Source: Spiribacter sp. 1M189
Lineage (GTDB): Bacteria > Pseudomonadota > Gammaproteobacteria > Nitrococcales > Nitrococcaceae
Length of the DNA stretch: 64,000 nt
Assembly: GCF_040838345.1 (NCBI RefSeq)
Contig: NZ_JBAKFF010000001.1
Location: 1,178,001-1,242,000, forward strand
Direction of reading: 5' to 3'
Position 1 is the stretch's first letter; every line of letters begins with the position of its first letter. The notes under the pieces are model-generated. The model made no database searches. It had not been told where the DNA came from and saw nothing but the letters and a program-made list of their open reading frames with translations. Shown here piece by piece: positions 13,132 to 17,685 of this stretch. Made by a program: the position numbers and the translations under genes.

Positions 13132-13781
13132 ACCGCGAGAAGCGTCAGGCGATCTTCGAGCGGCTGCGGGAGGCCAACCCGCACCCCACCACCGAGCTCA
13201 ACTACTCGACCCCCTTTGAGCTGCTGATCGCGGTCATCCTCTCTGCCCAGGCCACGGATCGCGGCGTCAACAAGGCCACCGGCCCGCTTTTCCGGGATGC
13301 CAACACCCCTCGGGCCATCCTCGCGCTGGGCGAAGACGGCCTGCGCGGCTACATCCGCACCATCGGGCTTTTCAACAGCAAGGCAAAGAACATCATCGCC
13401 ACCTGCCAGGCGCTGGTGGACCAGCATGACGGCGAGATTCCCCGCGACCGCAAGGCCCTCGAGGCGCTGCCCGGGGTCGGCCGCAAGACCGCCAATGTCG
13501 TCCTCAACACCGCCTTCGGCGAGCCCACCATGGCGGTGGATACGCATATCTTTCGGGTGGCCAATCGCACCGGCATCGCCAGAGGCAAGACCGTGCGCGC
13601 GGTCGAGGACAAGCTCCTGCGACTGATCCCGAAGGAATTCCTCAAGGACGCTCATCACTGGCTGATCCTGCATGGGCGCTACATCTGCACCGCCCGCAAG
13701 CCCCGCTGTGGCGCCTGCCCGATCTACGATCTGTGTGAATTCCCCGACAAGGCGCGCTACGCGGAGGCCGACGGCGGCTGA
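13128..13781 (+). CDS. nth: Endonuclease III (DNA glycosylase/AP lyase)
   Basis: A 217-residue base-excision repair enzyme that removes oxidised pyrimidines and cuts at abasic sites. The helix-hairpin-helix [13 protein letters not shown] contains the catalytic lysine, and [11 protein letters not shown] contains the catalytic aspartate. The C-terminal 4Fe-4S cluster has the exact spacing C-x6-C-x2-C-x5-C. It starts at GTG within a GTGA overlap with the rnfB-like gene, so a ferredoxin-like protein and this Fe-S glycosylase are made together. The 3' end overlaps a convergent permease gene by 25 bases. Confidence 0.96.
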
Positions 13782-14656
13782 ACCGCGTGTGGCGAGCGTG
13801 TCTGCTGCCAGGCCCGCCAGCGACGCCAGGCATAGGCGAGCAGCAGGAACGGCCCGGTGGCCAGTGCCATCGCACCACCAATCGAGACATCCAGCCACAC
13901 CGCCAGGGCGTAGCCCAGCGGCGCGGTCGCTGCCGCCAGCGCCATGGCCAGCAGGATCATGGTCGAGAGCCGCTGGGTGAGCAGATAGGCGGTAGCCGGC
14001 GGCACCACCACGAAGGTGATGAAAAGCACCACCCCCACTGCATCGAATGCCGCCACCGCAGTCCCGCTCAGCAACGAGAGATGGGCATAGAAGATCAGCC
14101 CTGGGGCGAGACCCAGCGCGCGGGCCAGGTCCGGATCGAAGGTGGCCAGCTTGAGCGCCTTGTAGAAGGCCAGCACAAACGCGGCATCCAGCAGCAGCAT
14201 CACGGTCATCGCGAGCATGGCGCGGGGCACCTCAACCCCACCGAGCGTGACGGTATCAAGCCAGACGAAGCCGATCTCGCCGAGCAACACCGTGTGCTCG
14301 TCCAGGTGGACATCCCGGGCGAAGACATTGATGAGGATGACGCCGGCACTGAACAGCGCGGGAAAGACCAGACCAATCGCCGCATCATCCCGCAGCCGCC
14401 GGGTGCGCGTCAGCGTCTCGATGAGATAGACGGCCAACACACCGCTCAGCGCGGCGCCGACGATCTGCACCGGGCCGCTGGTCTGGCCGGTCAGCAGCCA
14501 GGCAATGGCAATGCCGAAGAGAATCGAATGGCTGATGGCGTCAGCCAGCATGCTGTTGCCGCGCAGGACGAGGAAGCTGCCGAGCAGCGAGGCGCTCATG
14601 CCCACCAGCATGCCGGTCGCGAGAATGGCAGTAGTCGGATCGGCGAGCCCCGTCAT
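13757..14656 (-). CDS. Metal ABC transporter permease (TroD/ZnuB family)
   Basis: A 299-residue membrane protein with about eight or nine hydrophobic segments, of the ABC-3 permease family that imports Mn, Zn or Fe. Family features include NSMLADAISHSILFGIAIAW, LKLATFDPDLARALGL and the C-terminal VVPPATAYLL region. It is the last gene of the binding protein-ATPase-permease-permease operon and overlaps the preceding permease gene by four bases (ATGA). The metal cannot be read from this subunit alone. Confidence 0.88.
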   Translation of the reverse strand: MTGLADPTTAILATGMLVGMSASLLGSFLVLRGNSMLADAISHSILFGIAIAWLLTGQTSGPVQIVGAALSGVLAVYLIETLTRTRRLRDDAAIGLVFPALFSAGVILINVFARDVHLDEHTVLLGEIGFVWLDTVTLGGVEVPRAMLAMTVMLLLDAAFVLAFYKALKLATFDPDLARALGLAPGLIFYAHLSLLSGTAVAAFDAVGVVLFITFVVVPPATAYLLTQRLSTMILLAMALAAATAPLGYALAVWLDVSIGGAMALATGPFLLLAYAWRRWRAWQQTRSPHAVQPPSASA

Positions 14657-15792
14657 GCCGACTCCCCGAAGCGCCGACGACGGCGCTGGGCGTACTCCGC
14701 CGCGTGCGCCACACCGGACTCGGTGAGCTGCCAGTGCCGCCCCTCATCCGGCATATGCTGGGTGGGCAACACCAGGCCGCGATCGGCCAGGGTGCAAAGC
14801 TGCGGCTCGGTGATCATGCCGTGGTAGGCATCCACCGCGCCCTGCTCGACGCGATAGCGCCAGTCACCATGTTCCCGGGCGAGTTCATAGAGCGTCTGCA
14901 GGATACGATCAGTGGAGGTGTGCGAACGGCGATGGCGACGCCGCCACCAGGCCGGGATCAGCCCCCGTCGCGGCGCCAGCAGCAGCGACAGCAGCGCCAG
15001 GAGCGTTGCCAGCAGGACCACCACGGGCCCCGTGGACAGCCCCGGCGCAAGGGCACTGACCAGGCCACCCCCCACGCCGGCAAAGGCACCGAAGACCGCC
15101 GAGAGCACGACCATGCTGAGCAGGCTGCCGCTCCACTGACGGGCGGCGGCGCCGGGGGCGACGATCATCGCCGTCATCAAGACCACGCCCACCATCTGCA
15201 GGCCGGTGACCACGGCCAGCGCAATCATGGCCGTGAGCAGGCGCTCGAGCCACTGCACCGGCAGCCCCGTCACCGCCGCGAAGGCCGGGTCGAAAGTCAT
15301 GAGCTTGAGCGGCTTCCAGAGCAGCGCCACGCCCAGCAGGGCCACTCCGGCGAGGATCATCATTGGATAGAGATCGGCCCGCGAGGTCGCCGCCGCCTGC
15401 CCGAAGAGAAAACTATCCAGTCCCGCCTGCGCGGCACCGCCCTGGCGCTGTATCCAGGTCAGCAGCACCACCCCCAGGGCGAAACCGAGGCTGAGCGTGG
15501 CGGCGAGCGCCGCATCCATCTTCAGCCGCGTATTGCGGGTCAGCGCGATCATCAGCAGTGCCGCCACCACCCCGGTGAACAATGCGCCGCCCATGATGCT
15601 GCCCATCTCCCGCGCACCGGCGATCATGAAGCCGAGGCACACGCCGGGCAGCGCGGCATGGGCGAGCGCATCACCCAGCAGGCTCTGGCGCCGCAGCACG
15701 GCAAAGGCGCCGAGTACGCCGCTGATCACCCCAATCAGAGCGGCACCCAGCATGACGTTCTGCAGGGTGTAGTCAGCCAGCAGGCCCGGCAT
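14653..15792 (-). CDS. Metal ABC transporter permease fused to a DtxR-like winged helix (TroC/YtgCR type)
   Basis: A 379-residue protein. Residues 1 to about 275 are an ABC-3 permease with about eight membrane segments and family motifs [17 protein letters not shown] and [16 protein letters not shown]. After a basic linker, residues 291-379 (bases 14653-14922) resemble the DtxR/MntR winged helix: [12 protein letters not shown], then LADRGLVLP and a wing with [13 protein letters not shown]. The metal-binding dimerisation domain of DtxR is absent. ATG at 15792 has GGAGG eight bases upstream. The gene overlaps the ATPase end by 20 bases. Chlamydial YtgCR has a comparable fusion. Confidence 0.85.
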
Positions 15793-16576
15793 CCTCCGGC
15801 CCTCCGTTGCGCTGCCTCTCCTCGTCGAGCAGTGCGACCTGGCCACCGTAGGTGCGGCGCAGGTTGCGCGCGGTATATACCGAGTCGATCGGCCCGGCGG
15901 CGATCACACGGACATTGAGGAACACCAGCCAGTCGAAGTATCGCCGTACGGTCTGCAGGTCATGATGGACCACGATGATGGTCCGGCCCTCGCTGCGCAG
16001 TCGCCCGAGGATGTCGATGATGCTGCGCTCGGTGGTCGCATCGACACCGGCCATGGGCTCATCGAGCAGGAGGATGTCCGGCTGCTGGACCAGCGCCCGG
16101 GCGATGAACACGCGCTGCTGCTGGCCGCCGGAGAGTTCGCTGATCTGCCGATCCGCCAGCGCCTCCATGCCCACCTCCTCCAGCGCGCGCAACGCCCTGT
16201 CGCGCTCGCGTCGCCCGGGCCAGCGCAACCACCCCATGCGGGCGTATAGACCCATGGTGACCACATCCACCGCGGTGGTGGGGAAGTCCCAGTCCACGCT
16301 GGAGCGCTGGGGCACATAGCCCACCCGCCGGCGCTGCGCCGCATAGGTGTGGCCGAACAACCGGACATGGCCCGCCGACAGCGGCACAAGACCGAGGATG
16401 GCCTTGAGCAAGGTACTCTTGCCGGCACCGTTGGGACCGATGACACCAGCCAGCACGCCAGGCGGGATATTCAGATCGATATCCCATAGCGCAGGGCGAT
16501 CGCCGTAGCTGACCGTCAGATCCTCGACATGCAGCGCGAGATCCGGCTCATGGGGCTGACCGAGGTCCTGATCCAT
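15773..16576 (-). CDS. Metal ABC transporter ATP-binding protein (TroB/ZnuC family)
   Basis: A 267-residue ABC ATPase energising metal import. Walker A is GPNGAGKST, the Q-loop lies in [15 protein letters not shown] (the PQR.x.DWDFP signature typical of Mn/Zn/Fe importers), the ABC signature is LSGGQQQR, Walker B is ILLLDEP, and the H-loop is VVHHD. ATG at 16576 lies just after the binding protein's stop; a TTG at 16585 overlapping that stop (TTGA) is an alternative start. It is the second gene of the operon. Confidence 0.9.
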
Positions 16577-16581
16577 AGGGC

Positions 16582-17583
16582 TCAATCGCCACGCGCCGGC
16601 TGTGCATCCAGTGACCCGCGCCAGGGCGCCAGCACCGGCGGCAGCGGCGCCATGGTCCCGCCCAGCGCCCCGGTAATCGCTGCGGTGTTGTGGATCAGCA
16701 TACCAATGAGACTGTCGGCCAGCGTGCCCGGTTCGCCCAGCGCATCGCCGTAGATCGAGCCACCGATGGATACTTCCGCCGAGCGCTCCCGGGCGGCCGC
16801 CAGCACCGCTTCCACGGTGCGCGGATTGATGGTGGTCTCGACAAAGATGGCCGGGATGCCGCGCTCAGCGATGAGATCCGCGGTGGCCTGGATATCGGCG
16901 ACGCTGGCCTCGGCGCTGGTGCTGATGCCCTGGATGCCTTCGACCTCGATACCATAGGCGCGGCCGTAGTAGCGGAAGGCATCGTGGGCGGTGAGCAGTG
17001 CCCGCTGCGCCTCGGGGATGCTGGCGATGCGCGCGCGGATCCACTCGTCCAGCGCCTGGAGCTGCTCATGCAGGGTATCCGCCCGGTCGTTGATGGCCTC
17101 TGCGCAGCCCGGTGCGATATCGGTGAGCATGCCGGCGAGGGGTGCCACACCCTGCGCCCATAGACCGGCGTCCATCCACAGATGCGGATCGACTGCATAG
17201 CCGCCCGTGCCCTGTATGCGCTCCAACGGCCCTTCCGCGGCGGCGGCCTCGGCCAGCGCCAGTGTGGGCCGGCGCTCACCGACGCGGGTCAGGACATTGT
17301 CGAGCTGTCCCTCGAGCCCGAATCCGTTATAGACGATCAGCTCCGCCTGCTGGAATGCGCGCACGTCAGAGGCCGAGGCCTGGAAGAGGTGGGGATCAAC
17401 GCCGGGGCCCATCAACACTTCGACGTCGATGCACTCATCCCCGAGCCTCTCCACCGTATCGCCGACCATGCCCGTGGTGGCCAGCACCAGCGGCGCCGCA
17501 ACCACCGCCTGCGCCGCGCCGAGGCCTATGCCCACGACCATCGCACCGGTCAGTAAAACGTTGCGGCAGCGGCTGGCAACCAT
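16582..17583 (-). CDS. Metal ABC transporter substrate-binding protein (TroA/ZnuA family)
   Basis: A 333-residue exported protein of the cluster A-I metal-binding family. An N-terminal signal peptide ends near VVAAP. Candidate ligands are the histidines in [15 protein letters not shown] and [10 protein letters not shown] and an aspartate in GGSIYGDAL, giving the His-His-His-Asp pattern of TroA. There is no histidine-rich loop of the kind seen in ZnuA, so Mn or Fe is at least as likely as Zn. GGGAGAGG before the ATG supports this start over earlier in-frame ATGs. It heads the operon. Confidence 0.9.
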
Positions 17584-17606
17584 ACGTCCTCTCCCTGCGA
17601 ATGAGA

Positions 17607-17623
17607 ATTGGTATGGTTCCAAT
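17607..17623. promoter_or_regulatory. Operator-like dyad ATTGG-N7-CCAAT at the metal importer promoter
   Basis: A perfect 5-base inverted repeat with a 7-base spacer. It overlaps the last bases of the predicted -10 and the likely transcription start of the importer operon. That is a usual place for a repressor. It does not match the DtxR, MntR, Fur or Zur consensus that I know. Confidence 0.4.
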
Positions 17624-17649
17624 CTATCCATTGCCCCGGACCGGGTCAA
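17621..17649 (-). promoter_or_regulatory. Predicted sigma-70-type promoter of the metal importer operon
   Basis: On the minus strand TTGACC (17649-17644), a 17-base spacer and TAGATT (17626-17621) form a good promoter in the 102-base gap between argG and the binding-protein gene. The start site would fall near 17614, inside the neighbouring dyad. Confidence 0.55.
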
Positions 17650-17685
17650 CGACCCGGCCGCCGGGCCGGCGCGCACACCGACGCG

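Follow-up and report, generated by a model that had tools for sequence, protein, structure and literature searches.

The closest described counterpart of the protein considered here is chlamydial YtgCR, in which an ATP-binding cassette (ABC)-type metal permease of the ytgABCD operon carries a C-terminal winged-helix part; as the accessible portion of the source describes, the YtgR part of about 30 kDa is cleaved off, dimerizes, and coordinates iron (PMC7755916). Fused cytoplasmic domains are also known to throttle the ABC importers MetNI and ModABC, according to the accessible sections of PMC10710835. Here, we describe a metal ABC importer encoded on the minus strand of a 64,000-nucleotide stretch of the Spiribacter sp. 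1M189 genome (contig NZ_JBAKFF010000001.1, positions 1,178,001 to 1,242,000; hereafter, the window), in which only one of the two permeases, permease C, extends into a winged-helix tail. We tentatively favor a role of this tail on the transporter itself.

Permease C is predicted to end in a lone winged helix

The membrane part of permease C is an ABC-3 metal permease (PF00950, 232 bits versus a cut-off of 20.1). The tail begins at about residue 283 of 379 and comprises about 97 residues, for which AlphaFold2 predicts a winged helix both when the tail is modeled alone and within full-length permease C. The elements of the protein are as follows.

14653..15792, minus strand: permease C, a metal ABC transporter permease of 379 amino acids with a C-terminal winged-helix tail (translation; PF00950 at E 8.5e-69, residues 8-272)
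14962..15792, minus strand: ABC-3 core of permease C, residues 1-277 (PF00950; full-length structure model)
14665..14943, minus strand: predicted winged-helix tail domain, residues 284-376 (AlphaFold2 model mad90653da529, pLDDT 88.4; PDB matches)
14869..14943, minus strand: tail helix 1, residues 284-308, ending in H308 (model; alignment)
14830..14871, minus strand: polar residues H308, D310, Y313, E316, and D321 between helix 1 and helix 2 (column entropy below 1 bit)
14782..14808, minus strand: tail helix 3, the would-be recognition helix, residues 329-337 (EPQLCTLAD), without a basic residue (model; residue counts)
14725..14772, minus strand: wing of two strands, residues 341-356 (model)
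14665..14721, minus strand: tail helix 4, residues 358-376, followed by the end of the protein at residue 379 without a dimerization domain (translation; model)

The initial annotation of this locus had read the tail as the DNA-binding half of a DtxR/MntR repressor from which the metal-sensing and dimerization part is missing. The structure search did recover a winged helix, both in the AlphaFold2 model and among PDB matches, and the second half is indeed absent: the metal-binding/dimerization domain that follows the winged helix of DtxR/MntR is not present in permease C, which stops after helix 4. The specific assignment to DtxR did not hold. When the PDB matches of the tail were compared with VIA-align, MarR/PadR regulators and the Escherichia coli DtxR-like protein 2h09 (named MntR) matched the tail equally well, and, therefore, the label "DtxR-like" appears fair yet unspecific. 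PF01325 (Fe_dep_repress) matched neither P0001 nor P0002 at E values up to 1, and was absent from the 25 families listed among the 28 that 63 tails matched. In profile comparisons, the 63 tails scored 57% over 37 columns against MntR, 95% over 36 columns against Deinococcus-type tails (in the part from helix 3 to helix 4 only), 1.6% against a GntR control, and 94% over 73 columns against a MarR set that was picked by the tail profile itself and is thus biased upward; Deinococcus-type tails scored 82% over 61 columns against MntR. A DtxR-specific origin of the tail was rejected because these comparisons do not single out DtxR.

Conserved polar residues of the tail map outside the would-be recognition helix

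The initial set of loci was gathered with six peptide patterns, two of them taken from the tail, and the best 80 of 126 loci were kept; tail-less relatives are therefore under-represented in that set. The permease alignment had 93 rows, of which 87 remained after identical ones were removed. It left out repeat-permease loci, weak outgroup matches, one locus with a discontinuous permease frame (L085), and one whose tail is cut by the contig end (L105). The tail is kept in 84 of the 87 distinct sequences, the window's included, and three are without it. H308 is identical in all 84 tails, and the other tail columns with an entropy below 1 bit include L298, T300, D310, Y313, E316, D321, G325, L332, L335, G339, W354, L356, T357, G360, and A364. 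The conserved polar residues among them (H308, D310, Y313, E316, and D321) fall outside the recognition helix. Helix 3 (mean column entropy of 2.01 bits), the wing (2.34 bits), and helix 4 are more variable (2.0-2.5 bits) than the helix 1-helix 2 segment. Within the genus, the ratio of nonsynonymous to synonymous substitution rates (dN/dS) is 0.03-0.16 for the tail (computable in 8 of 9 pairs) and 0.06-0.21 for the core (9 of 9 pairs). Judging by these ratios, the tail is under purifying selection within the genus, with dN/dS as low as in the permease core.

Given the low dN/dS of the tail and the residues that are invariant across 84 aligned sequences, the suggestion of the initial annotation that the tail is merely a leftover structural domain is unlikely to be correct. 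A functionless evolutionary remnant of a repressor fusion would fit the absence of the tail from a few relatives and its lower conservation than the core over all relatives, but we find it hardly credible.

The initial annotation had also named a loss of the basic residues of the recognition helix across relatives as counting against its reading, and these residues are lost in the window's genus and retained elsewhere. Helix 3 (residues 329-337) has no basic residue in nine of the ten genus homologues and one in the tenth, whereas it lacks them in only 1 of 74 other relatives, which carry 2.6 lysines or arginines on average. The mean charge of helix 3 is −1.7 in the ten genus homologues versus +2.0 in the 74 others, and the wing is acidic in the genus (mean charge of −2.0). 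Because helix 3 is without basic residues in the genus and the part of the tail from helix 3 through the wing to helix 4 is variable, DNA binding by the tail appears improbable in the window organism; tails of other lineages may bind DNA.

These findings bear on the proposal of a YtgCR-like arrangement, in which the tail would bind DNA and regulate the operon that encodes it, either while tethered to the membrane or after proteolytic release. We judge such a role quite unlikely in this genome. In addition to the helix 3 without basic residues and the acidic wing in the genus, the tail has no dimerization part, whereas the palindrome upstream of the operon (see below) calls for a dimer, and separate MntR-type genes lie beside many operons (32 of 74 loci). 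Moreover, the YtgR cleavage product is a dimerizing, iron-coordinating protein of about 30 kDa, as described in the accessible portion of PMC7755916, while the tail has about 97 residues.

Given that the tail is kept, that it is tied to the permease (29 of the best 30 Deinococcota loci found by the core alone are tailed), and that the recognition helix contains none of its conserved polar residues, we hypothesize that the tail is a module that tunes or assembles the transporter. In this tentative reading, in which our confidence falls somewhat short of even, permease C of a putative manganese/iron-type ABC importer would bear a winged helix on the cytoplasmic side that acts in cis on the transporter and not on DNA. 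The tail would most likely dock near the ATPase/permease interface, with the conserved helix 1-helix 2 face (H308, D310, Y313, E316, and D321) as its putative working surface, and would adjust the activity or assembly of the transporter, possibly in response to cytoplasmic metal. Separate repressors would control transcription of the operon, namely MntR in many relatives and, in the window's genus, probably a member of the Fur family. A bolder proposal, which we consider unlikely, is that a repressor-type winged helix captured by the permease became a cytoplasmic, metal-responsive brake, in which the H308-D310-Y313-E316-D321 set would sense metal or the ATPase and throttle uptake post-translationally alongside MntR/Fur, the DNA-binding face having been erased in the genus.

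Somewhat doubtful is a purely structural or assembly domain that would stabilize permease C, pair it with permease D, or recruit the ATPase without any signaling. The fusion in 84 of 87 aligned sequences, the purifying selection within the genus, and the presence of the tail on just one of the two permeases in the window are all consistent with such a domain, as are the many conserved residues that seem structural (L298, L332, L335, G339, W354, L356, and G360). However, H308, D310, E316, and D321 are, in our judgement, conserved beyond the needs of packing. Furthermore, the tail-less loci L201 and L202 retain the rest of the operon, and in L195 a tail-less permease is followed by a permease D frame (by eye).

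The metal operon and its separate regulators

The importer comprises four genes, encoding a binding protein, an ATPase, permease C, and permease D, in a host genome of 1.95 Mb. The chlamydial operon to which the initial annotation had likened this gene order has the order ytgABCD. The remaining features of the locus are listed below.

13757..14656, minus strand: permease D, the second permease, without a tail (PF00950 at E 6.9e-40, residues 12-275 of 299)
15773..16585, minus strand: ABC ATPase (PF00005 at E 1.9e-32)
16582..17583, minus strand: periplasmic metal-binding protein of the ZnuA family (PF01297 at E 1.6e-67)
17608..17622, no strand assigned: operator-like palindrome TTGGTATGGTTCCAA, located upstream of the importer genes (kept across the genus)

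The ATG of permease D overlaps the stop codon of permease C, and the start of the binding protein at ATG 17583 is our choice. The top NCBIfam model of the ATPase is MntA (Deinococcus), with 259 bits, below its cut-off of 400. The nearest NCBIfam models for the ATPase and the binding protein belong to manganese or zinc systems, and all those listed fall below their cut-offs. MntR-type genes that adjoin the operon in relatives point to manganese as the probable substrate.

Among the 80 loci, 74 were usable for a scan upstream of the operon (binding-protein gene present and at least 1.5 kb before it). A DtxR-family gene occurs in the available stretch at 34 of these 74 tail-bearing loci, at 32 of them within about 500 bp upstream of the operon, and no such gene occurs in the available stretch at the other 40. 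The DtxR matches cover nearly the entire full-length MntR references, which have the metal-binding and dimerization part. At the genome level, a DtxR-family match at E 1e-7 is present in 32 of 50 tail-bearing genomes and in none of the remaining 18 (the count was drawn from 56 loci, with 6 left out), and 10 of 13 further genomes were matched. A tail and a true repressor thus seem commonly to coexist. Because an MntR-type gene stands beside the tailed operon in 32 of 74 loci, the tail is not by default the repressor of these operons. The same adjacency would suit a docking platform, in which the tail binds MntR or a Fur-family protein and sequesters the regulator according to transport state, and winged helices often pair. 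Yet the tail is also kept where a DtxR gene is absent from the available stretch (40 of 74 loci) or from the genome at E 1e-7 (18 of 50), and we regard a docking platform as very improbable. The window genome encodes three Fur-family proteins.

The palindrome lies inside the region 17600-17650, which the initial annotation had named as a candidate site for DNA binding by the tail. Its form TTGGAANNNTTCCAA is found with at most one mismatch in seven, and with at most two mismatches in eight, of the nine tailed genus genomes examined (of ten); in the ninth, 15 of 500 shuffles equaled the match. Given that a palindrome suits a dimer and that a heterodimeric transporter would bear a single tail, the palindrome is more likely read by a separate dimeric repressor than by one membrane-tethered tail. 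We take the palindrome TTGGTATGGTTCCAA to resemble the Irr/ICE motif. Speaking against Irr as the reader, Irr of Rhodobacter sphaeroides did not bind upstream of sitA, according to the accessible part of PMC3413700. Across the genome, TTGGAANNNTTCCAA with up to two mismatches has 12 sites versus 16 for a reversed control, a count that is no evidence of a regulon. Similar boxes in the same genome (L154, L155, L161, and L163), whose number is not above the control, lie near genes that were read by eye as encoding succinate dehydrogenase, a rhodopsin and a TonB-like protein, fur, and a Dps-like protein.

Distribution of the tail among relatives

The tail recurs in Alphaproteobacteria, Gammaproteobacteria, and Deinococcota. 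A search of Deinococcota with the core only found a related core in 51 of 111 genomes at E 1e-30, with 54-66% identity to the permease core of the window. Of the winged-helix-type tails recognized by eye in the best 30 loci, 22 are of the window's kind and 7 are of a second kind (L191, L193, L194, and L197-L200), which has a more classical helix-turn-helix, a common LEQAMRVLP end, and no H-x-D-P-x-Y...D-x-Y-H-G signature. One tail of the second kind matches Pfam HVO_A0261_N at E 7e-8, just under the cut-off. In the remaining locus (L195), the permease stops right after the core and a permease D frame directly follows (by eye), making it a natural tail-less member.

In Alphaproteobacteria, the core-only search matched 5 of 337 genomes at E 1e-50: L166 (the center genome itself) and L167 are tailed, L168 is truncated where its stretch ends, L169 has no such tail, and L170 has a different one. 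The L170 tail (L170:2368-2694) is a 109-residue extension of an alphaproteobacterial ABC-3 permease whose end is slightly like DtxR helix 4 and the dimerization part; a DtxR-like dimerization remnant there was considered and dropped (hhalign, 13.6%; the order is represented by two genomes). In Gammaproteobacteria, the tail profile matched 5 of 369 genomes. Three of the matches are at E 1e-34 or better, namely the window's own and two that we take, by score, to be tailed permeases; the other two were read by eye as MarR-type. Among plasmids, there is one record at E 1e-60, from Paracoccus, annotated only as a metal ABC transporter permease.

In a core tree that includes the extra Deinococcota, two changes are required to account for the tail-less members; the tree was built quickly and has long branches, that of L195 among them. 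If the root is right, the two changes would be separate losses within the tailed group.

Observations that weigh against a role in cis

Several observations weigh against a module that acts on the transporter. When all relatives are taken together, conservation is lower in the tail than in the core, with column entropies averaging 1.66 and 0.87 bits, respectively. Tail-less relatives exist (L016-L018 and L195), and, therefore, the tail is probably dispensable for transport. Outside the genus, helix 3 is basic, which fits contact with DNA or phosphate there. Deinococcus-type tails are without most of the polar residues, so a single mechanism for all tails is doubtful. Finally, the ten tailed genomes of the genus have no DtxR-family protein beyond GntR look-alikes, and in two of the three tail-less ones MntR adjoins the operon, which might be taken as a sign of functional replacement.

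The genus pattern comes from 14 genomes, of which 10 carry a tailed permease and 3 a tail-less one; in the last (G021, 100% complete), the search for this permease found no match at E 1e-20. PF01325 matches occur in five of the 14, strong in tail-less G012 and G014 and weak in tailed G010, G011, and G020; two of the weak matches are at or over the curated cut-off, and all three are GntR-type by eye. In G012 and G014 (loci L202 and L201, respectively), MntR lies divergently upstream of the operon, next to a different palindrome (AGTTAG...CTAACT, by eye). Completeness is only 84-87% for four of the ten tailed genomes, and the third tail-less genome (G015) is uninformative (74% complete, with a contig that starts 651 bases before the match).

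In a quick tree, the tail-less permeases of the genus group with alphaproteobacterial ones (SH-aLRT of 98, a group of four), suggesting horizontal transfer of the operon; in an initial tree that lacked the extra Deinococcota, the tail-less permeases were near the base, unresolved. The tail-less genus operons look like another operon lineage and not like a deletion within the window's lineage. Replacement of MntR by the tail is not shown, given the GntR look-alikes, the incomplete genomes, and the separate lineage of the tail-less operons.

Comparison with known systems

The tail is not an oddity of one genome: both halophilic Proteobacteria and Deinococcota carry it on the same permease. No paper on this tail was found among the matches listed in the open-access literature searched. 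The main text of a 2025 study of Deinococcus radiodurans MntABC uses neither "C-terminal" nor "winged"; in Deinococcota, high manganese has been proposed to support radiation resistance (PMC12524626). If the tail regulates transport, it would represent a post-translational layer of metal control that is unmentioned in the open-access papers searched, and a winged-helix fold separated from DNA binding. Naturally occurring combinations (tail and MntR together, tail alone, and MntR alone) make the question testable in laboratory strains that can be cultured.

Among known proteins, Deinococcota ABC-3 permeases have the same type of core and a winged-helix-type tail in 29 of the best 30 loci, although 7 of the 30 differ in the kind of tail. 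With the MntR/DtxR metalloregulators, the tail has the winged-helix fold in common, but this fold is also that of MarR/PadR, and the tail has no PF01325 match, no metal-binding/dimerization domain, and, in the window, no basic recognition helix. We take the fold of the MetNI and ModABC regulatory domains to differ from a winged helix. These importers resemble the system described here in having a small fused domain beside an ABC importer, where the cytoplasmic side and the role of the permease C tail are putative; as the accessible sections of PMC10710835 describe, the domain is on the ATPase, whereas the tail is on one permease. Compared to YtgCR, permease C carries a lone winged helix within about 97 residues and not a complete DtxR repressor or a sensing/dimerization part, its helix 3 is without basic residues in the genus, and separate MntR-type genes exist in many relatives. 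To our knowledge, YtgCR is the only permease-repressor fusion known as described. We regard this kind of fusion as known from YtgCR and the present form, in which a metal permease bears a winged helix but lacks the remaining repressor parts, as new.
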